Source of the DNA: a virus
DNA length: 26,874 nt
IMG/VR virus record: IMGVR_UViG_3300008261_000758
Coordinates: 1 to 26,874 of that record
Strand: one strand, 5' to 3'
The notes under the pieces are model-generated. The model searched no databases, was not told the DNA's origin, and was given only the letters and a program-made list of their open reading frames with translations. Shown here piece by piece: positions 13,408 through 26,784 of this stretch (position 1 is its first letter; each line of letters starts with the position of its first letter). The translations under genes were made by a program, and so were the position numbers.

Positions 13408-14031
13408 TTGAATTTCACACATTTGCATGTGCATTCTTTCTATTCATTAATGGATGGGCTTAATTCTCCTGCCGAACTTGTTAGAGCAGCAAAAGAGGCT
13501 GGTCAAACAGCAATTGCAATAACAGATCACGGAACATTATCTTCACATCGTGAAATGCAAATTGCATGTAAGGATCAAGGTATAAAGCCAATCCTTGGAG
13601 TAGAAGCGTATATATCACCAACAGATAGATTTGATCGCTCCTCTAAAACAGATAAATCAATTCAAGCGTATAACCATATTATTTTACTTGCAAAAAATAA
13701 AAAGGGTCTAGAAAATATTAATACATTGCAAGAGCTGGCTTGGAACGAAGGGTTCTATCATAAACCACGTATTGACAGGGAGATTTTAAATGATTATAGC
13801 GAAGGTGTTATCGTTCTCAGCGGATGTCTTAATGGACTCATTAGTAAGGCTATCGATAAAGGTAACATGGAGGAAGCAGAACTTCTTCTCAAAGGCTTTA
13901 AACAAACTTTCGGACAAGATTTTTACGTGGAAGTGCAATCACATAACCCTGTGGAGATCAACTCCCTAAGATGGATAAGGATGCTGACTTTGATATGTCC
14001 AGAAATATTAAAGATATTAATGATAGATTAA
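13408..14031 (+). CDS. dnaE: DNA polymerase III alpha subunit, N-terminal fragment (PHP domain)
   Basis: The TTG at 13408, with a GGCGGAG site 8 bp upstream, opens the PHP domain: 'FTHLHVHSFYSLMDG' (H-x-H, residues 3-17), 'AIAITDHGTLSS' (D40-H41) and 'KPILGVEAYIS'. Later 'GCLNGLISKAIDKGN' and 'DFYVEVQSHN' match the second PHP part. After about residue 184 (near 13960) the frame runs into unrelated sequence ('WIRMLTLICPEILKILMID') and stops at 14029-14031; the true continuation lies in the -1 frame. The stretch usually carrying 'A...g....ttD.Hy....d' is missing, roughly 30 residues by comparison with remembered DnaE proteins. C-family replicase of bacterial type; the enzyme would copy the phage chromosome. 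Confidence 0.88.
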   Translation: MNFTHLHVHSFYSLMDGLNSPAELVRAAKEAGQTAIAITDHGTLSSHREMQIACKDQGIKPILGVEAYISPTDRFDRSSKTDKSIQAYNHIILLAKNKKGLENINTLQELAWNEGFYHKPRIDREILNDYSEGVIVLSGCLNGLISKAIDKGNMEEAELLLKGFKQTFGQDFYVEVQSHNPVEINSLRWIRMLTLICPEILKILMID

Positions 14032-15644
14032 ACTATCTATATCCAGATAGAAGAATATCTTTCCAAGATTACAATCTATTTATTCAGACTCGTGAAGAAA
14101 TTCAGGCTGATTTTGTTAAGGCTGGATTTACCAGAACAGATATATACGAGAATACGATGGAAATTGCTGATAAAATAGGAGAGTATGACTTTAATCAGGG
14201 CCTAGACCTCCTACCAGTCCCTAAGACTGATGCCGATGAAAGACTAAGGGAACTGTCTCAAAAGGGCTTAGAGAGGCTTCAGAAGGCTTCAGATGATATC
14301 TATAAGGCTCGCCTTGAGGAAGAGCTTGGGGTTATTGCATCAAAGAATTTTGCCTCATATTTCTTGGTAGTAGCAGATATGATTAACTGGGCTAAAGATA
14401 ATGATATTAGGGTGGGCCCAGGCCGTGGCTCTGCAGCAGGCTCTCTGGTCTGCTATGCCCTAGGAATTACAGATGTTGATCCAATTAAATATGACCTTTT
14501 GTTTTTTCGATTTATTAATCCTGAGCGTAATGACTTTCCAGATATTGATACAGATTTTGAAGACCGCCGAAGAAAAGAAGTTAAGGATTATTTAAAGAAA
14601 AAATTTAAACACGTTGCTTCTATATCAACATATACTTATTTTAAAGATAAGGGCGTTGTCCGTGATGCTGCTCGTGTGTTTATGGTTCCTCTCCAAGAAG
14701 TAAACCGTGCATTAAAGCCAGTAGATACATTTGAAGACTTTATTGATTCCCCAAATACAAAAGAATTTAGAACACGATACCCAGAAGTTGTTTGGTTAGC
14801 AGAAAGATTGCGTGGTCGTATTCGTTCTGTTGGTGTACACGCAGCTGGAGTTGTTGTTGCTAAAGATGATATTAGAAAGTATGCACCTGTTGAATCCCGT
14901 GAAGATGCACAGGATAAAGTTTCAGGAAGAATTCCAGTGGTCGCATACGATATGGACACTGTTGCCGATATCGGTCTTATCAAGTTAGATGCACTGGGTC
15001 TTAAGACTTTATCTGTAATGTCAGACACAATTAAATCTATTAAAGAAAGAACTGGCAAGGACATAAACCTTTCAGGCCTTCCTATGGATGATCCAAAAGT
15101 TTATAAGATGCTAAGCGATGGATACACTAAAGGTGTATTTCAAGCTGAAGCAACTCCATACACAAACCTTCTTATTAAAATGGGTGTAGACAAGTTTGAA
15201 GATCTTGCTGCATCGAACGCATTGGTTCGTCCAGGTGCAATGAATACAGTGGGTGCCTCATACATTAAGCGTAAACACGGAGATGAAGCCGTACAGTTTA
15301 TTCACCCAATTATGAAGCCGTTTACCGAGAACACATATGGTGTTATTATATATCAAGAGCAGGTTATGCAAGCTTGCGTCCACCTAGGTGGTATGTCTTG
15401 GTCAGAGGCTGATAAGGTCCGCAAGATTATTGGAAAGAAAAAAGATGCAAAAGAATTCGACCAGTTCAAGGATCGCTTTATTGATGGGGCTTCAAAGCAC
15501 ATTTCTAAGATGAAGTTAAATTTATTTCAGACAGCATTGCCAATAAAATTATTGATCAAAGACCATTTAAAGATTACGCTGACTTCATTGACAAAGCTTC
15601 AAAGAAAGGTAGTGGAATCAATAGCCGTGCTATTGCGGCATTAA
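13971..15644 (+). CDS. dnaE: DNA polymerase III alpha subunit, central catalytic fragment
   Basis: Genuine polymerase sequence runs from about 13966 to about 15510. It has the thumb/palm entry ('YFLVVADMINWAKDNDIRVG'), 'GPGRGSAAGSLVCYALGIT', the palm aspartates 'PDIDTDFEDRRR' (two Asp of the triad, near 14538-14573), 'VGVHAAGVVVA' and 'IGLIKLDALGLKTLSV' (third Asp, near 14975), then fingers 'GVFQAEA', 'VRPGAMN', 'YGVIIYQEQVM' and 'KKKDAKEFDQFKDRFIDGAS'. After 'HISK' (near 15508) the frame gives foreign residues to the stop at 15644, while the true continuation is in the -1 frame. The conserved block that should follow (Phe-Glu-x-Hx-x-Y-x-F-N-K-S-H and 'YWTAWLK') is absent. Its catalytic Asp triad is complete, but the gene is broken at both ends. 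Confidence 0.88.
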   Translation: MDKDADFDMSRNIKDINDRLNYLYPDRRISFQDYNLFIQTREEIQADFVKAGFTRTDIYENTMEIADKIGEYDFNQGLDLLPVPKTDADERLRELSQKGLERLQKASDDIYKARLEEELGVIASKNFASYFLVVADMINWAKDNDIRVGPGRGSAAGSLVCYALGITDVDPIKYDLLFFRFINPERNDFPDIDTDFEDRRRKEVKDYLKKKFKHVASISTYTYFKDKGVVRDAARVFMVPLQEVNRALKPVDTFEDFIDSPNTKEFRTRYPEVVWLAERLRGRIRSVGVHAAGVVVAKDDIRKYAPVESREDAQDKVSGRIPVVAYDMDTVADIGLIKLDALGLKTLSVMSDTIKSIKERTGKDINLSGLPMDDPKVYKMLSDGYTKGVFQAEATPYTNLLIKMGVDKFEDLAASNALVRPGAMNTVGASYIKRKHGDEAVQFIHPIMKPFTENTYGVIIYQEQVMQACVHLGGMSWSEADKVRKIIGKKKDAKEFDQFKDRFIDGASKHISKMKLNLFQTALPIKLLIKDHLKITLTSLTKLQRKVVESIAVLLRH

Positions 15645-19278: not shown

Positions 19279-19553
19279 TTTGCGAAAACAAAGAGTGTAA
19301 GAAAAAGTTTACACCCAAGACGCATAATCAAAAGTATTGCAAGGATGAGTGTTGTAGAATTGCGACTAATAAAAGAATCATGGAAAAGTATTATGAGAAA
19401 AAAGCAATTAAAAATGGGGCTGAAAGGCTTTGCAAGAAATGCAATATACAATTAAGCAGGTATAATAAGAATAACATATGCTCATCTTGTGAAAAGAATA
19501 TCAATACTGGAAATGTTGAGTCTATTATAAAGAGGATAAATGACGTTAGCTAG
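19275..19553 (+). CDS. Small multi-cysteine zinc-finger protein
   Basis: 92 residues, ATG within the end of the Cas4-like gene (ATGA). 'MICENKECKKKFTPKTHNQK' and 'YCKDECCRIATNKR' form an FCS/MYM-like finger found in small phage and bacterial proteins ('C....C...F.p....q.yCs..C'). A second set, 'LCKKCNIQLSRYNKNNICSS', gives C-x2-C ... C-x2-C. Very Lys-rich, so nucleic-acid contact is likely. The function is unknown. It overlaps RuvC by 14 bp. Confidence 0.6.
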   Translation: MICENKECKKKFTPKTHNQKYCKDECCRIATNKRIMEKYYEKKAIKNGAERLCKKCNIQLSRYNKNNICSSCEKNINTGNVESIIKRINDVS

Positions 19554-19902
19554 TTTAAAAAAAATACAAGCCAATAGGGTGTTGGGAATAGACGCATCCA
19601 CCAACTCTATTGCTTTTTGCCTTATGGAAAATGATATTCCTTTGAAGTGGGGAAAGATAGATTTAGTCGGGCAGGATATTTATGAGAAAATATATAACGC
19701 CAAACTAAGAATGAATATGATGCTTGAAGAATTAAAAAGTGATTATATTGCGGTAGAAGGTGCCATACTTGTCAGATCACCCGATGCTGTGATAAAATTG
19801 TCTTATGTCTATGGAGTTGTTATTGCTGAGCTTATGTCTACTGGGTCTAAGGTTATTACTATTAGCCCATCCAGGATACGCAGATTCCTGGTACAAAAAT
19901 AA
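19540..19902 (+). CDS. ruvC: RuvC-like Holliday junction resolvase, N-terminal fragment
   Basis: 'RVLGIDASTNSIAFCLM' (first catalytic Asp, near residue 18) and 'SDYIAVEGAIL' (catalytic Glu, about residue 74) are the RNase H-fold motifs of RuvC, which resolves four-way junctions. Then 'VYGVVIAELMSTGSKVITIS' is the conserved helix and strand. From 'ISPS' (19861-19872) the frame turns into non-homologous residues and stops at 19900-19902. The continuation is in the +1 frame. The start at 19540 is favoured by the AGAGGA site; a GTG at 19578 would trim the leader. Lies directly after DNA-metabolism genes with overlapping start. Confidence 0.8.
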   Translation: MTLASLKKIQANRVLGIDASTNSIAFCLMENDIPLKWGKIDLVGQDIYEKIYNAKLRMNMMLEELKSDYIAVEGAILVRSPDAVIKLSYVYGVVIAELMSTGSKVITISPSRIRRFLVQK

Positions 19903-20035
19903 GTTACGCAATATAAGAAAGCAGAGAACTGCTGATTACTTTAACAGGAAGTATAATTTAAATGTGGTGGATTTTGACGTTGCAGATAGCTTTGGTATTG
20001 CACATTATGCTAACAAAATACTAACAGAGCGATGA
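19862..20035 (+). pseudogene. ruvC: RuvC-like resolvase, C-terminal fragment
   Basis: The +1 frame reads 'HPGYADSWYKNKLRNIRKQR', then 'TADYFNRKYNLNVVDFDVAD' with 'SFGIAHYA' and stops at TGA 20033-20035. 'DvADSfgIa.y' carries the last catalytic aspartates of the RuvC fold (D-x2-D). All acidic residues survive across the two halves; what is missing is the short loop after 'ISPS' that in relatives reads like 'tW.s.iG.k..tk.eK..i', roughly 20 residues. There is no start codon of its own before the conserved part, so it is a fragment, not a separate gene. Confidence 0.72.
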
Positions 20036-20893: not shown

Positions 20894-22685
20894 TTTTGCT
20901 GACCTTATCGACATGCTCGATGGAGAGGAGTTCGATGAAAAACCAGTCGATCTTAAAACGTTTGTTAGAAGTCCAGAATACCTTGGGCTTCCAGAACTTT
21001 CCGACTATCAGTACACGCTTATCGAAAAAAGCTCACAGATCTATAAAGAGTCAACGCTTATCAAGCTATTTGGAGAAGAAGAAGGAAGAATAAGATTTAA
21101 GCAAACCGCTAATGAAGTAGTTGCTCAATTAGGAAAAGGTTCTGGAAAAGATTACTGCTCAACTATTGCAGTATCGTATATAGTATATTTACTATTATGC
21201 CTTAAGGATCCAGCCACATATTATGGTAAGCCCCCAGGAGACAGCATTGATATTATTAACATTGCTATCAACTCTCAACAGGCAAGCAACGTTTTCTTTA
21301 AAGGTTTTAAAACACGAATCGACAAGTCACCTTGGTTTGCTGGAAAGTATAACGACAAGGCTTCAGAAGTTAAATTTGATAAAGCTATTACAGTACATTC
21401 AGGTCACTCAGAGCGTGAAGCTTGGGAAGGCTACAACGTAATTGTGGTCATCCTTGATGAAATTTCAGGCTTTGCTATTGATAACACAACAGGACATGAG
21501 CAGGCAAAAACAGGCGCAGCTATATATGATATGTACCGTGCATCTGTAGATTCCCGTTTCCCAGACTTCGGTAAGGTAATATTACTCTCATTTCCTAGAT
21601 ACAAGAACGACTATATACAGCAAAGGTACGATGCCGTAGTAGCACAAAAAGAAACTATTGTCCGTGATCATAAATTTAAAATGGATGAAGACCTGCCAGA
21701 TGATACGCAAGGAAATGAATTTAGTGTTGAGTGGGAAGAAGACCATATCTTATCTTATAAAATTCCAAGAGTATATGCACTTAAGAGACCTACCTGGGAA
21801 GTAAACCCAGTAAGAAAAATTGATGACTTTAAGGTAGCATTTTTTACAAATCCTTTAGACGCATTGTCAAGATTTGCATGCATGCCCCCTGATGCTGTTG
21901 ATGCATTTTTTAAATCAAGAGAAAAGGTTGAGAAGGCTTTTAATAAAGCACATCTTGCTGTAGATAATTTTGGTAGACTTGAAGAGTGGTTTATTCCAGA
22001 TCCAGATAAAGAATACTTTATTCACGTGGACTTAGCGCAGAAGCATGACCATTGTGCGGTAGCAATGGGTCACGTAAACAAATGGGTAAATATTAAAGTT
22101 ACCGACACATATTCACAGCCAGCCCCTATTGTTGAGATAGATGCAGTTAGGTTCTGGACACCAACAAAAGATAAGTCTGTAGATTTTACTGAAGTAAAAG
22201 ATTACATACTTTCATTAAAGACACGAGGATTTAAAATTCGTGTATGTACCTTTGACAGATGGAACTCTCACGATATGATGCAACAACTAAAACAATACGG
22301 CATCAATACAGAGATTCTGTCTGTCGCTAAAAAGCATTACGACGATATGGCAATGATTGTGGCGGAAGAAAGACTGTCTGGGCCGCACATACAGTTACTA
22401 ATAGACGAATTGCTTCAGCTTAAAATTATGAGAGATAGAGTTGACCACCCAAGAAAAGGGTCTAAGGATTTGGCGGACGCAGTCTGTGGAGCTATTTACA
22501 ACGCTATAAGCAGAAGTAAATTTGATACAAACCAAGAAATAAATATACATACATACGAATCTATGAACTACGATAACGATTTTGGGACAGAAAATGATGG
22601 CGAAACAAGCTCATTCAATATGATAAGAGCACCAAGAATGCCAGGTAACTTGAGAGACGCAATGGACAGGATGCAAATAATATGA
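20883..22685 (+). CDS. terL: Terminase large subunit
   Basis: 600 residues, the normal length. Walker A-like 'QLGKGSGKD' (about 82-90, with the terminase-type early Lys), then Walker B with catalytic Glu 'VIVVILDEIS' (about 186-195), give the packaging ATPase. The C-terminal RNase H-fold nuclease shows 'YFIHVDLAQKHDHCAVAMG' (first Asp, about 382), 'RVCTFDRWNSHDMMQQL' (second Asp, about 458) and 'GSKDLADAVCGAIYN' (third Asp, about 533). It cuts concatemers and pumps DNA into proheads. No break is visible here, unlike the replication genes. The first residues 'MSFDFADLIDMLDGEEFDEK' overlap the small subunit. The portal should follow in most phages, but here an accessory segment does, so head genes lie elsewhere. 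Confidence 0.93.
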   Translation: MSFDFADLIDMLDGEEFDEKPVDLKTFVRSPEYLGLPELSDYQYTLIEKSSQIYKESTLIKLFGEEEGRIRFKQTANEVVAQLGKGSGKDYCSTIAVSYIVYLLLCLKDPATYYGKPPGDSIDIINIAINSQQASNVFFKGFKTRIDKSPWFAGKYNDKASEVKFDKAITVHSGHSEREAWEGYNVIVVILDEISGFAIDNTTGHEQAKTGAAIYDMYRASVDSRFPDFGKVILLSFPRYKNDYIQQRYDAVVAQKETIVRDHKFKMDEDLPDDTQGNEFSVEWEEDHILSYKIPRVYALKRPTWEVNPVRKIDDFKVAFFTNPLDALSRFACMPPDAVDAFFKSREKVEKAFNKAHLAVDNFGRLEEWFIPDPDKEYFIHVDLAQKHDHCAVAMGHVNKWVNIKVTDTYSQPAPIVEIDAVRFWTPTKDKSVDFTEVKDYILSLKTRGFKIRVCTFDRWNSHDMMQQLKQYGINTEILSVAKKHYDDMAMIVAEERLSGPHIQLLIDELLQLKIMRDRVDHPRKGSKDLADAVCGAIYNAISRSKFDTNQEINIHTYESMNYDNDFGTENDGETSSFNMIRAPRMPGNLRDAMDRMQII

Positions 22686-22912
22686 GTACGTATCAAGAAA
22701 AAGCTAAAGAGTGTAAGTGTTGTGGTAAGCATGTTCCTCTCCCTACTGTATTAAAAGAATACAATGGGGTAGTGTTGTGCCCGACCACATTTGCTAATGT
22801 TGTTGAATATAAAAGAATTTGGAATCTTGCTGGCTCTAGGCCAATGGGCAACATAAGAAAACATTTCTCAGAATACGTACAGCAAATAGTTGAAAGCTCA
22901 ATTAATGATTAA
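22682..22912 (+). CDS. Small zinc-ribbon protein after terminase
   Basis: 76 residues, overlapping terL by ATGA. 'KECKCCGKHVPLPTVLKEYN' and 'VVLCPTTFANVVEYKRIWNL' give a C-x-C-C ... C set of the kind seen in small phage zinc proteins. The second half is helical ('GNIRKHFSEYVQQIVESSIN'). Function unknown. The following tiny gene starts within its last codons. Confidence 0.6.
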   Translation: MSTYQEKAKECKCCGKHVPLPTVLKEYNGVVLCPTTFANVVEYKRIWNLAGSRPMGNIRKHFSEYVQQIVESSIND

Positions 22913-22997
22913 GAATATATTTTATAGCCTATATGTATTCCTGTATAGAAAGAAAAAGAAAAAAAGAATTAAAGAAAAAGGGGATTACATTTACTAA
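22905..22997 (+). CDS. Tiny basic protein with possible membrane anchor
   Basis: 30 residues from ATG at 22905 to TAA at 22995-22997. 'MIKNIFYSLYVFLYRKKKKK' is a short aromatic/hydrophobic stretch followed by a run of Lys, and the rest is 'RIKEKGDYIY'. The stretch is only about 11 residues, short for a full membrane span. Its stop overlaps the next start (TAATG), suggesting it is translated as a coupler ahead of the two SGNH-like genes. It may be only a translational leader. Confidence 0.45.
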   Translation: MIKNIFYSLYVFLYRKKKKKRIKEKGDYIY

Positions 22998-24001
22998 TGA
23001 ATTTAAAAAATAGATTTCGTGATGCCCTGTTAGGAAAAGCTGATCTGTTTTATAACAGTAGTCAAAGAAATAATTTTCTGTACCCTAGCCTTCAAAATCT
23101 TTCTCAGTCACATACACACGGTCCTAATCTTTGGAGCCAAGCTAAAGAAGAGTACTACATAGATAAAGTACAAAATAAATGTCTTTACAAAGATCACCCA
23201 GATTATGATCTGTTCAGCAAAGAAAATTATTCTATAAATAGAAAGCTATATAGAGGAAGAAATTTTATTGAAGGTGCTCCTGCTGAAATTTTAGTTGCAG
23301 GGTGCTCGCAGACATGGGGAACTGGCTTGCCAGACTCTTTGATTTGGCCAAATATTTTAAAAGAAAGTTTAAATGTAAAAGATGTAGATAATTTAGGTCA
23401 GCCAGGAAAATCAATAAGAGGAATTGTAGAAATAGTTTTTTCTTATTTTAAAGAAGTTGGTCACCCAGAAAAATTATTTATTCTATTGCCACCACTGTGG
23501 AGATTTAGGTTGCCAAGAACTCCAGGTGTTATGGTTTCTCAAGAAACTCATAAAAATGATATTTTAATTGACGGCTCCGTTAACCCTGAATACCACGCTA
23601 AATTTTACAAACTGCCCCTGGTGCTGCATGAAGTAATTACAGAAGAAATTGCTTATGACCAATCTCTTATGTCTTTAAGGTTACTAGAGCAGTACTGCAA
23701 GCAGTCTAACATATTTTTAAGATATGGGTTCTGGGATCCAGACGAAAATTTATTCTTTAAAGAAATTGCTAATAAAAATAAATATTATGAAAGCTATACA
23801 TCTATAGACTCTAGGTGGTTTAACGAAAAAACATTTAGTGGAGATCACCCCAATTGCCATAAAGATCTTGCAGACAATCCAAGTTACAGAATGTTTTGGG
23901 AAATAGCAAACGATTATGATCAACACAAAAACCCTCACATAGGGGCACACGCAAGCATTCATATCGCAGAAAAATTTTATGAGGAGACTTTAAATGGATA
24001 A
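22997..24001 (+). CDS. SGNH-hydrolase-like protein, first of two paralogues
   Basis: 334 residues. 'EILVAGCSQTWGTGLPDSL' (about 97-115) corresponds to SGNH block I: a strand ending G-x-S, Cys replacing the usual Asp. 'VDNLGQPGKSIRGIV' (about 131-145) is like the block with Gly/Asn, 'KLFILLPPLWRFR' (about 156-168) like block III, and 'PHIGAHASIHIAEKF' (313-327) the C-terminal His-containing block. SGNH proteins are esterases, lipases or acetylhydrolases, often acting on glycans. No signal peptide, so it would act in the cytoplasm or on the particle. It overlaps its paralogue by 8 bp and is followed by a carbamoyltransferase, suggesting a joint small-molecule or sugar modification. The match is weak enough that a non-catalytic role remains possible. 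Confidence 0.55.
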   Translation: MNLKNRFRDALLGKADLFYNSSQRNNFLYPSLQNLSQSHTHGPNLWSQAKEEYYIDKVQNKCLYKDHPDYDLFSKENYSINRKLYRGRNFIEGAPAEILVAGCSQTWGTGLPDSLIWPNILKESLNVKDVDNLGQPGKSIRGIVEIVFSYFKEVGHPEKLFILLPPLWRFRLPRTPGVMVSQETHKNDILIDGSVNPEYHAKFYKLPLVLHEVITEEIAYDQSLMSLRLLEQYCKQSNIFLRYGFWDPDENLFFKEIANKNKYYESYTSIDSRWFNEKTFSGDHPNCHKDLADNPSYRMFWEIANDYDQHKNPHIGAHASIHIAEKFYEETLNG

Positions 24002-24992
24002 TCAAGGCGGCAAAAAATATATCGATTGGGATATAAAAGATGGCAAAAGAACAGCCGAAGCTATTTATTCAAACAAATTAGAAAATCAAATTTATGTAAA
24101 TAGAGCTCCAACACTCAGCAAGTTGCTTAAGGAATGGAATAAAGATGATATTCATTACTATTTAAATAACTATGGATTCAGAGACAAAGATTTTTTTGAA
24201 GCCGCAGACTTATTGATAAACGGATGCTCTCAAACATGGGGGAACTCTTTGCCAAAACAATATAGGTTTTCGGACATTGTAGAAGATAACTTTTTGGGAA
24301 CAGTCCATAATATTGCTTATGAGGGTAACTCAGTAGGCTCAGTTGTTCGCTCAACATTTGCTTACATAAAAGAATTTGGAAACCCAAAATACATTTATTG
24401 TATGCTACCACCATTTGAAAGGATTGAATTTATTCCAGACCCCAACACGCTTAATAAGTGGGACTGGGCAGAATATTATAAAAAGTTTAAAAAAACAGAA
24501 ACGGAAGATATCGATTTTTCTCCATTACAGATTGCTACTGTTGATGTCTTTACCCCTATATACGCAAAAGCCCCATACGCAATAGAAGATGTCATGAACC
24601 CACAGTCAGCATATTTTATAAATATGCAAATGCTTTTAATGCTCGAACAATATTGTGACAATGCAGGTATTAAATTTATGTGGTCCTGCTGGAGCAACTC
24701 ATATAGTGTAATGGATTTTGTTGCAGATTTACAAAAAAATAATAAAGATCATCAAAGCTATTTCCATATACCAATTTGGAATTGGCGCCTAGATAAAGAG
24801 AGAAAAGATATTTTAGATAGCTCAGGTTGTCACAAAGATTTAGAGTCGGAGGATAAAATCTTTTTTGATCATGCAAAAGATATTGGGAGAGTTGCAACCA
24901 GTACCCCTCACTGGGGTTCCCACAGGAACGCACACGTAGCAGAAAAAGTTTTATCTGAAATGAAAAATAGATGGGACGGGGTAGTAAAATGA
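23994..24992 (+). CDS. SGNH-hydrolase-like protein, second paralogue
   Basis: 332 residues, a clear relative of the preceding gene: 'LLINGCSQTWGNSLPKQYRF' (about 74-93) with the same G-C-S-Q-T-W-G block, 'VHNIAYEGNSVGSVVR', 'YIYCMLPPFERIEF', a mid-length 'LEQYCDNAGIKFMWSCWSN', then 'CHKDLESEDKIFFDHAKDI' and 'PHWGSHRNAHVAEKV' near the end. Order and spacing of the blocks match the first copy, while the residues between them have diverged, so the tandem duplication is old. It overlaps the upstream gene by 8 bp and the carbamoyltransferase by ATGA. As in the first copy, the catalytic Ser and His candidates are visible, but the acid residue is not settled. Substrate unknown. Confidence 0.55.
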   Translation: MDNQGGKKYIDWDIKDGKRTAEAIYSNKLENQIYVNRAPTLSKLLKEWNKDDIHYYLNNYGFRDKDFFEAADLLINGCSQTWGNSLPKQYRFSDIVEDNFLGTVHNIAYEGNSVGSVVRSTFAYIKEFGNPKYIYCMLPPFERIEFIPDPNTLNKWDWAEYYKKFKKTETEDIDFSPLQIATVDVFTPIYAKAPYAIEDVMNPQSAYFINMQMLLMLEQYCDNAGIKFMWSCWSNSYSVMDFVADLQKNNKDHQSYFHIPIWNWRLDKERKDILDSSGCHKDLESEDKIFFDHAKDIGRVATSTPHWGSHRNAHVAEKVLSEMKNRWDGVVK

Positions 24993-26431
24993 TTATTTTA
25001 GGAGTTAATGAAACCTCTCATGATGCCTCATTGTCTTTAATTAAAGATGGAGAGATACTCTTTGCGGGCCATTCAGAAAGATACAGTAAGCAAAAAAATG
25101 ATTGGTATATTAATGATAGTTTAGTTAAGGACGCTTTGTCGTATGGGGTACCAGATCGTATAGCCTACTACGAAAAACCGCTTCTAAAGGCCTCCAGGCT
25201 ATTTCTAAAGGGCGGTGCAGGAGACTGGAGACCAAGGTTTGATTTGCCAGGTGTGCCAAGAAAGTCTTTTAGCCACCACTACTCACATGCGTGTGCTGGA
25301 TATTATACTAGCAAGTTTACAGATGCAGTTATTGTAGTTTTAGACTCTATGGGAGAATATAACACTTCTACAATTTGGACGGGCAAAGGCGAAAAAATTA
25401 AGTTAAAGTATAAACATAGTTACCCAGTGAGCTTTGGATTATTTTATTCAGCCTTTACTCAACTAATAGGATTAATGCCAAACCAAGAGGAATATATTAT
25501 GATGGGTATGGCGGCATATGGGGACTGGACCAAATACTATAAAAAAGTTAACGATTATTTTCCTTCATATAATAATCAAAAATACAATTTTCATAACGGC
25601 ATTACGGACTGGGGCTGGGTTTCAGAAGAAGATAAATTTGACATAGCAGCAGCAGCTCAAATAGTTTATGAGCAAAGACTTAACGATTTTATGCGTATGG
25701 CTAAATTAATTACTGGCAAGGACAACTTGGTGTTTATGGGAGGCTGTGCATTAAATTCATCAGCCAACACTCTGCTTTGGAAAATATTTAAAGACGTTTG
25801 GATTATGCCAAACCCAGGGGATGCTGGAAGTTCTTTAGGTGCCGCCGCAGCATTATATGGAAAGCATTTAGATTGGAAGACTCCATATTTAGGCTATGAT
25901 ATGGGAGGAACGTATCCTGTTAACGAGATACTTGCACAACTAAAAACAAATAAAATAGCAGCAGTTGCAGTTGGAAGAGCAGAGTACGGACCAAGAGCAC
26001 TTGGTAATAGAAGTATTTTGGCTGACCCTAGAGACCCAGACATTAAAGATAAAGTAAATACAATTAAACAAAGAGAACAATTTAGACCTTTTGCTCCAGT
26101 AGTTCTAGAGGAATTTGCAAGAGAATGGTTTGATATGGATTTTACATCTCCTTACATGCAGTATACGGTTAAATGTAAGTACCCAGAAAAAATACCAGCA
26201 GTTGTTCACGAAGACGGAACCTCTAGAGTACAAACAATTAATAGAGATCAGCATCCAGATCTTCACATGCTTTTAAGAAAATGGTATTGGGACACAGGAT
26301 GTCCAGTGCTTTTAAATACAAGTTTAAATATAAAGGGTCAGCCATTGTTAAATGATCAACAAGACGCTATTGACTGGCAGGCGCATTATGGATATAATAT
26401 ACTAACGGGCAACAATAGCTTAGTTGGTTAA
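24989..26431 (+). CDS. NodU/CmcH-family O-carbamoyltransferase
   Basis: 480 residues from ATG at 24989; an upstream in-frame ATG would overlap the neighbour further. N-terminal Kae1-like fold: 'MIILGVNETSHDASLSLIKD', 'SHHYSHACAGYYTS' (metal-binding H-x3-H, about 95-108), 'VVLDSMGEYNTSTIW' and 'FMGGCALNSSANT' (about 249-261). C-terminal domain: 'AEYGPRALGNRSILADPRD' (about 331-349), the family's hallmark, plus 'REQFRPFAP' and 'LLNTSLNIKGQPL'. Family members use carbamoyl phosphate and ATP to O-carbamoylate sugars or antibiotic cores (Nod factors, cephamycin, tobramycin). It is shorter than the usual 550-600 residues but has all the main blocks. Its last codons form the acceptor stem of the overlapping tRNA. 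The target in this phage is unknown; viral copies occur in several marine phages. Confidence 0.88.
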   Translation: MIILGVNETSHDASLSLIKDGEILFAGHSERYSKQKNDWYINDSLVKDALSYGVPDRIAYYEKPLLKASRLFLKGGAGDWRPRFDLPGVPRKSFSHHYSHACAGYYTSKFTDAVIVVLDSMGEYNTSTIWTGKGEKIKLKYKHSYPVSFGLFYSAFTQLIGLMPNQEEYIMMGMAAYGDWTKYYKKVNDYFPSYNNQKYNFHNGITDWGWVSEEDKFDIAAAAQIVYEQRLNDFMRMAKLITGKDNLVFMGGCALNSSANTLLWKIFKDVWIMPNPGDAGSSLGAAAALYGKHLDWKTPYLGYDMGGTYPVNEILAQLKTNKIAAVAVGRAEYGPRALGNRSILADPRDPDIKDKVNTIKQREQFRPFAPVVLEEFAREWFDMDFTSPYMQYTVKCKYPEKIPAVVHEDGTSRVQTINRDQHPDLHMLLRKWYWDTGCPVLLNTSLNIKGQPLLNDQQDAIDWQAHYGYNILTGNNSLVG

Positions 26432-26482
26432 AGCCCCGAACTCATAATTCGGTAATCGTAGGTTCAAGTCCTACTTGTTGCA
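26409..26482 (+). tRNA. tRNA-Met (anticodon CAT; Ile2 possible)
   Basis: Folds cleanly. Acceptor GCAACAA/TTGTTGC (26409-26415 and 26475-26481, 7/7), D stem GCTT/AAGC, anticodon stem CCGAA/TTCGG with loop CTCATAA (anticodon CAT at 26443-26445), T stem GTAGG/CCTAC with loop TTCAAGT, discriminator A at 26482. CCA is not encoded in full. CAT can be elongator Met or, if lysidine-modified, Ile(AUA). There is no sign of an initiator set of three GC pairs in the anticodon stem. The 5' 23 bases lie inside the carbamoyltransferase gene. Confidence 0.9.
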
Positions 26483-26496
26483 CAGAAGGGGGAAAA

Positions 26497-26784
26497 ATGG
26501 AGCACGAAGATCTAGATTACTATATTGAAATAGGCGCAGTAGATATTAGCGGCGTAGACAAAGATGGAGAAATTTTATTTACTGTTACAGAAAAGGCAAA
26601 ATATTTAGCACCTGATTTGTGGGAAGCTCATGTAAAATTTATAGACAAAGCACTGCTTGATCTTTTTAATAAGAATTTAATAAATGTAGAATATAATGAA
26701 AATTTAGAAGCCACCATTTCCTATACTCCCGAAGCGGAGTCCTTGTTAAAAGAAATTGGGTTAAGTCACAACGATGGGGATTAG
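26497..26784 (+). CDS. Hypothetical acidic protein between tRNA genes
   Basis: 95 residues with a strong GAAGGGGG site before ATG. The protein is acidic: 'DYYIEIGAVDISGVDKDGEI', 'FTVTEKAKYLAPDLWEAHVK', 'FIDKALLDLFNKNLINVEYN', ending 'SLLKEIGLSHNDGD'. The two-part helix/strand pattern resembles small winged-helix-like conserved phage proteins ('vtekak..aP.l...h...vd..l..L...glv.v.y...l.a.i..t..g'), found near tRNA genes in some phages, but I cannot name it. Its last 10 bp overlap tRNA-Asn, so its terminal codons double as tRNA sequence. Confidence 0.6.
   Translation: MEHEDLDYYIEIGAVDISGVDKDGEILFTVTEKAKYLAPDLWEAHVKFIDKALLDLFNKNLINVEYNENLEATISYTPEAESLLKEIGLSHNDGD

Follow-up and report, generated by a model that had tools for sequence, protein, structure and literature searches.

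We describe a cassette of four overlapping genes in a viral DNA fragment of 26,874 nucleotides (26.9 kb; IMG/VR record IMGVR_UViG_3300008261_000758, hereafter the window) that, as seen through its genes and structural models, looks like an undescribed peptide-modifying pathway in phages of lake bacteria. The genes lie on the + strand at 22905–26431, each overlapping the next, and encode a basic peptide of 30 amino acids, two SGNH-fold paralogues (A and B) and a NodU/CmcH-type carbamoyltransferase (C), so the overlapping four-gene unit proposed in an initial annotation of this DNA is real. Because the peptide accompanies the SGNH genes, is basic in contrast to the acidic A and B and ends in tyrosine, and because A and B are structurally related to the crocagin hydrolase CgnD, we read the cassette as a compact pathway of the ribosomally synthesized and post-translationally modified peptide (RiPP) type, with the peptide as its proposed substrate. 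We hold this reading with just under half of our confidence, and we weigh the alternatives below alongside the evidence that bears on them.

A small basic peptide tracks the SGNH genes

The first gene of the cassette (22905–22997, + strand) encodes the peptide MIKNIFYSLYVFLYRKKKKKRIKEKGDYIY, and the final A of its TAA stop codon (22995–22997) doubles as the A of gene A's ATG. To collect relatives, viral contigs were scanned with A, B and joint A+B profiles, which reached loci down to about 26% identity, and 30 locus groups were defined at 80% SGNH identity. The 30-residue open reading frame (ORF) recurs 5′ of A in relatives. Peptides were sought with a profile and then with a plain motif rule: a small basic ORF ending in [FYW]-[IVLMT]-Tyr, with Phe and Trp also allowed at the last position. 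A script found the peptide in 26 of the 30 discovery groups; L070 has an additional one that overlaps its SGNH gene beyond the script's cut-off, and L091 is cut at the contig end. Cassette peptides are usually 25–33 residues long, with a mean net charge of +8.7 and no cysteine in 28 of 29, and their C-terminus is a near-invariant tripeptide: an aromatic residue, then Ile, Val, Leu, Met or Thr, then Tyr. In the window, the peptide has a net charge of +8, A of −5 and B of −8.

The peptide is coding and under purifying selection. The ratio of nonsynonymous to synonymous substitution rates (dN/dS) between the window peptide and its relatives is 0.10–0.28 in the peptide frame, and pairwise values among peptides are 0.06–0.28 save for one more divergent pair (0.68), whereas the other two frames give about 0.6–3.9. 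The initial annotation had called this gene a 30-residue leader; a gene is indeed present before A, but it is conserved, selected and tied to the SGNH gene, and hence more than a leader. If the ORF served only to couple translation, or was just a conserved ribosome-binding stretch ahead of the following gene, this would account for the one-base overlap between the peptide stop and the next start in 21 of 27 cases and for a window ORF that spans the ribosome-binding site. However, dN/dS is well below 1 in the peptide frame only, the peptide also occurs after the carbamoyltransferase (L069 and L080) and, in L243, on the opposite strand, and the GC-rich locus L099 keeps a similar ending (...RKRDPFVY) with different codons. 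We therefore reject such a coupling artefact as largely refuted and highly improbable. Other peptides sit between SGNH genes.

The N-terminal half of the peptide is cationic and rich in aromatic residues, and small proteins of this kind are common in phages. These features could suit a membrane-active effector (for lysis, exclusion or a toxin-like role) that is armed or disarmed by A/B and C, but we consider this very unlikely. The helical amphipathicity of the peptide is not above that of shuffled sequences (mean z 0.63), for which reason the idea of an amphipathic helix was dropped, and conservation peaks at the C-terminus rather than in the hydrophobic part.

The C-terminal motif also appeared in loci that had not been used to discover it. 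The test set consisted of loci found with the carbamoyltransferase alone, with previously seen loci removed (n = 69, not all independent; 40 distinct peptides). Only small basic ORFs were counted, and those within 150 nt of an SGNH or carbamoyltransferase gene were classed as near the cassette. The motif was present in 54 of 139 such ORFs near the cassette versus 0 of 798 elsewhere (Fisher 5e-50), with Thr at position −2 having been allowed only after a first look at the test loci; the original rule, without that Thr and with ten repeat loci included, gave 54/167 near and 0/939 elsewhere. Permuted control motifs occurred 0 times near the cassette and 1–4 times elsewhere. Every one of the 54 motif peptides ends in Tyr, even though the rule permitted Phe and Trp. 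Two genomes of 109–114 kb each have a single motif-bearing peptide ORF, which lies inside the cassette.

Across the same 69 loci, peptide and SGNH gene occurred together in 38, the SGNH gene alone in 1, the peptide alone in 8 and neither in 22 (Fisher 2e-10), so that 38 of the 39 SGNH-bearing loci have the peptide. This tracking could also be expected if the peptide bound the SGNH proteins as a partner, chaperone or activator, docking through its C-terminal aromatic-Ile-Tyr, while the enzymes act on another substrate. Docking peptides typically have a free C-terminal motif, and the charges of the peptide and A/B are complementary. We nevertheless find such a docking role quite unlikely: cassettes that hold two to four SGNH genes often have only one peptide, eight loci have a peptide and no SGNH gene nearby, and we infer that a docking site would accept Phe in place of Tyr at least sometimes.

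A and B have predicted SGNH folds with an intact Ser-Asp-His triad

A (334 residues; 22997–24001, + strand) and B (332 residues; 23994–24992, + strand) are paralogues with 27% identity over 313 residues (E 3e-32). AlphaFold2 models give both an SGNH fold, with pLDDT 88.1 and pTM 0.90 for A (49 sequences) and pLDDT 83.9 and pTM 0.88 for B (57 sequences). With VIA-align, the top match of A is CgnD (8a2n_A; Z 14.5 over 210 residues), with TesA/GDSL proteins at 13.1, and the top match of B is again CgnD (Z 15.3 over 218 residues), with TesA at 13.5. Foldseek matched B to TesA (E 8e-5) and other GDSL proteins, and carbohydrate esterases are also among the structural matches of A/B.

The putative catalytic residues are Ser104 (in GCSQTWG), Asp306 and His314 in A, all invariant in alignment A4, and Ser79 (GCSQTWG), Asp296 and His306 in B. 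Wherever the region is present among 57 aligned relatives, the triad is kept: Ser of block I in 56/56, Asp in 57/57 and His in 56/56. B His306 and A His314 map onto the catalytic His328 of CgnD, as counted back from the C-terminal ends of the structurally aligned ranges. The Asp and His are spaced as a canonical DxxH in 14 sequences, and most others have a loop inserted between them. The predicted folds and the intact Ser-Asp-His set bear out the initial assignment of both proteins as SGNH-like.

Several features set the A/B family apart. Block II retains Gly111 in 51 of the 57 aligned relatives, but no oxyanion-hole Asn is conserved in block III of these sequences, where the stretch instead reads P-x-x-x-R with an invariant Arg143; the invariant Pro131, Arg143 and Cys221 are particular to this family. 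The family may have a non-standard oxyanion hole or catalyze a reaction other than hydrolysis. Neither A nor B has a convincing match of its own to a Pfam or PHROG family, and some of their relatives match Pfam GDSL models (best 5e-5). An A/B sequence profile searched against the PDB did not retrieve CgnD; it gave TesA/GDSL matches to block I only, plus false matches to spermidine-binding proteins.

CgnD belongs to the crocagin pathway of Chondromyces crocatus, which comprises the precursor CgnA, the 2-oxoglutarate (2OG) dioxygenase CgnC, the hydrolase CgnD and the carbamoyltransferase CgnI (PMC10070186). CgnD removes the basic leader of the 21-residue CgnA, the C-terminal tripeptide of the precursor is hydroxylated by the 2OG dioxygenase, and the carbamoyltransferase is among the finishing enzymes (PMC10070186).

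C is a carbamoyltransferase of the NodU/CmcH type

C occupies 24989–26431 (+ strand) and has 480 residues when counted from the ATG at 24989, a conserved start that overlaps the stop of B; a longer start at 24971 is not retained in relatives. The expected enzyme class is confirmed by both Pfam domains, Carbam_trans_N (4.9e-31; 108.8 bits against a curated cut-off of 24) and Carbam_trans_C (1.3e-55; 188 bits against 27), and by a match to phrog_1601 (6e-102). Its PDB relatives are NovN, GdmN and TobZ (E 6e-51 to 2e-42). His102, His103, His106, Asp284, Arg342, Arg347 and Arg372 (numbered from the 24971 start) are invariant in 28 relatives and align to NovN and GdmN. C thus keeps what is presumably the metal-binding HxxxH-type motif together with C-terminal YrdC-like blocks, with the roles of these residues assumed from the family.

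The gene set recurs in divergent viruses

SGNH genes are present in all 30 locus groups and a carbamoyltransferase in 28, in the orders S-S-C, S-C-S, C-S and S-C (S, SGNH; C, carbamoyltransferase). Conservation is far higher in the carbamoyltransferases (64–82% to C) than in the SGNH proteins (21–46% outside the closest groups). This pairing, recurring in about 30 divergent viral locus groups, is far beyond chance. The initial annotation had reckoned with the set never being found together elsewhere, and this is clearly not the case: it recurs across many phages and at least one bacterial metagenome-assembled genome (MAG). A tblastn search of 50,697 phage records with A, B and two divergent relatives gave no match, and the A/B profile found no confirmed relative in 84,980 bacterial and archaeal genomes, where related SGNH genes were reached only via the carbamoyltransferase. 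Several bacterial loci found with C have an SGNH gene adjoining the carbamoyltransferase.

Three kinds of locus illustrate this range. Marine virus AG-345-D19 (MH319727; L094 3906–7208) has two SGNH-like genes followed by a carbamoyltransferase, with a likely version of the peptide (...SDPYIYEE); this is an unannotated marine single-cell virus record, and its carbamoyltransferase has an apparent frame break near the start. In Roseobacter relatives (L163 7114–9836, L171 7087–9818, L143 and L176), a GCSFTYG SGNH gene overlaps or abuts the carbamoyltransferase, and this pair may serve other substrates. L099/L270 (L270 467–9554; MAG Alphaproteobacteria RI_46, GC about 60%) carries an SGNH gene (Pfam DUF6071), a carbamoyltransferase, a likely version of the peptide ending RKRDPFVY, two radical-SAM genes and a glycosyltransferase-like gene on a contig that looks chromosomal and bacterial by eye; it is possibly a cellular version with radical-SAM chemistry.

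Some cassettes adjoin genes for sugar metabolism, including GT61, HAD and nucleotidyltransferase fusions, a GlcNAc-type glycosyltransferase and a weak sulfotransferase match, and the carbamoyltransferases of cyanophages and pelagiphages lie within heptose/UDP-sugar clusters. These neighbors, the carbohydrate esterases among the SGNH structural matches and the bacterial SGNH-carbamoyltransferase pairs that exist without a peptide would all suit a role in glycan decoration, in which C would add carbamoyl groups, and A/B add or remove acyl groups, on sugars of the virion or host surface, with the peptide as a helper that localizes or anchors the enzymes. We regard glycan decoration as unlikely, though deserving of serious attention: most cassettes, including that of the window, have no sugar genes inside, and it leaves unexplained both the tight tracking of peptide and SGNH gene and the absence of Phe in place of the last Tyr. 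Seven loci with GT61 and HAD-nucleotidyltransferase fusions nearby (L041, L047, L050, L053, L065, L066 and L068) may make a glycosylated form of the product.

A cluster of 2OG oxygenases is found within the fetched flanks of 17 of the 30 locus groups, though not inside the window cassette, and a 109-kb relative has several elsewhere in its genome (identified mostly by eye). Separately, L260 (1–1017 and 1059–6693; G001:C1 60001–66693) encodes a putative tail or structural protein with many FFAPPN repeats, immediately followed by a run of genes that resemble, by eye, 2OG-Fe(II) oxygenases of the prolyl-hydroxylase type; the phage fibre might thus carry hydroxylated proline.

Phage carbamoyltransferases that act on modified cytosine are known from TET phages, and weak Tet_JBP matches occur in our relatives, as might be expected if C carbamoylated a hydroxymethyl base in hypermodified DNA. 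We give this proposal very little credence: every Tet_JBP match is below cut-off and resembles general 2OG oxygenases, and the SGNH genes and peptide are left unexplained. No Thymidylat_synt match was found in seven records, six long relatives among them; the window is itself a fragment. With the long relatives lacking thymidylate-synthase-type enzymes and the Tet_JBP matches all sub-threshold, the nucleotide target that had been among the options first listed finds no support.

Genomic setting and likely hosts

The cassette is preceded by the small and large terminase genes and a 76-residue protein, and followed by tRNA-Met, a 95-residue protein and tRNA-Asn. The 76-residue, Cys-containing protein (K4; 22682–22912, + strand) lies 3′ of the terminase on the left flank, and the 95-residue protein (K3; 26497–26784, + strand) lies on the right; both are outside the cassette. 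K3 homologues occur in 20 of 30 locus groups at varying positions around the cassette. The tRNA-Met found by ARAGORN (26409–26483, + strand) overlaps the last 23 bases of C.

The initial annotation placed the cassette where head genes would be expected. In the 109-kb relative, the cassette likewise follows the terminase, and the portal/capsid-like genes (68.9–73.0 kb, assigned by eye) are about 60 kb away; there is therefore no gap in a 'head' slot for the cassette to fill.

The window terminase is 64–65% identical to those of Streptomyces phages such as Gilson (Stanwilliamsviridae), which has the terminase and a K4 homologue (37% identity) in the same order, with no cassette 3′ of them. A WhiB gene is present in all six long relatives; from this and the terminase kinship, the hosts are very likely Actinobacteria.

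Elsewhere in the window, at 13408–15644 and 19540–20035, the genes for DNA polymerase III alpha and a RuvC-like protein are split into overlapping frames. They are single ORFs in the relative G001 (102907–106173 and 2220–2783), and the breaks, which lie outside the cassette, are probably assembly or sequencing errors.

A proposed peptide-modification pathway

We envision a pathway in which the ribosome would make a strongly basic peptide of 25–33 residues with its near-invariant C-terminal aromatic-Ile-Tyr, and the acidic SGNH proteins would bind it. C, like its characterized relatives, would activate carbamoyl phosphate with ATP and carbamoylate a hydroxyl; the likeliest sites are the invariant Tyr at the C-terminus or a core hydroxyl introduced by a 2OG-Fe(II) oxygenase whose gene lies elsewhere. 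The Ser-Asp-His triad of A/B could then remove the leader, much as CgnD acts in the crocagin pathway, or edit the modification, and the product might be a small molecule that acts on the actinobacterial host or on competitors. The substrate, modified residue, order of steps and product role are what we infer from the conservation, models and gene company described above.

A more specific proposal is that these genes define a new class of phage ribosomal peptide, whose aromatic-Ile-Tyr precursor would receive an O-carbamoyl group on its C-terminal core and be freed by SGNH hydrolases as a small-molecule weapon or host-control agent of aquatic actinobacteriophages. We put this forward as unlikely in its full detail. 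Tyrosine O-carbamoylation would, to our knowledge, be a new peptide modification.

Several observations weigh against a peptide-modification pathway. The 8 test loci that pair peptide and carbamoyltransferase with no SGNH gene detected nearby are joined by 22 carbamoyltransferase loci with neither peptide nor SGNH gene (for example L196–L200, L203, L204, L246 and L248–L251), and the Roseobacter pairs have no such peptide. The link to CgnD rests on fold and gene company rather than on a sequence profile, and the SGNH fold serves many substrates. Peptidase_M29, used as a proxy for CgnB/CgnE, had no match at E ≤ 1 in 8 genomes, a weak proxy given that CgnB/CgnE share <25% identity with M29 and are not covered by any Pfam model. 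We noticed no transporter or immunity gene, and some cassettes adjoin glycosyltransferases.

Processing of the peptide would mean that the slot beside the terminase in lake phages houses a pathway to a ribosomal natural product. Carbamoyltransferases are widespread in phages as auxiliary genes whose acceptor is not known, and these cassettes now offer a candidate in a peptide too small for annotation, which was found by conservation and confirmed in loci not used for discovery. That an alphaproteobacterial MAG carries a comparable set suggests that phages and bacteria have exchanged it. We found no paper that, for this set, links a carbamoyltransferase and SGNH/GDSL to phages or RiPPs, and a phage-RiPP mining paper mentions none of carbamoyl, SGNH or crocagin (PMC11118758).

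Comparison with known systems

A and B share with TesA/GDSL (SGNH) esterases and carbohydrate esterases the fold, the nucleophile Ser in the first block and an Asp-His near the C-terminal end. They differ in their long N-terminal and internal additions, variable Asp-His loop, own invariant Pro, Arg and Cys, and lack of a Pfam match. C resembles the NodU/CmcH O-carbamoyltransferases TobZ, GdmN and NovN in having both Pfam domains span the whole protein and in its HHxxHA motif and PGDAGSS, GPRALGNRS and RPFAP blocks, but it is shorter (480 versus 576–702 residues). The phrog_1601 'Nol-like carbamoyltransferases' of cyanophages and pelagiphages belong to the same PHROG family, are phage-borne and are frequently near 2OG-Fe(II) oxygenases; they are only about 28–35% identical to C. 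In the regions read around those of S-SSM7, HTVC008M and C48C1, profiles detect no SGNH partner and a matching peptide is absent; heptose or sugar-nucleotide genes take their place in S-SSM7 and HTVC008M.

Crocagin biosynthesis offers a further comparison, although we rejected filing the cassette as a crocagin pathway: the phage core is aromatic-Ile-Tyr rather than Ile-Tyr-Trp and has no C-terminal Trp, so that the Tyr-Trp core which forms the pyrroloindoline is absent, and CgnB/CgnE were not found with the weak proxy. The phage hydrolases are usually duplicated, no sequence-level similarity of A/B to CgnD was found, and the window cassette has no dioxygenase inside it. What the two systems share is a short basic precursor with its functional residues at the C-terminus, a carbamoyltransferase and a hydrolase with a Ser/Asp/His triad; among solved structures, that of CgnD lies nearest to A and to B alike. 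2OG-Fe(II) oxygenases lie near the 17 of 30 phage locus groups noted above.

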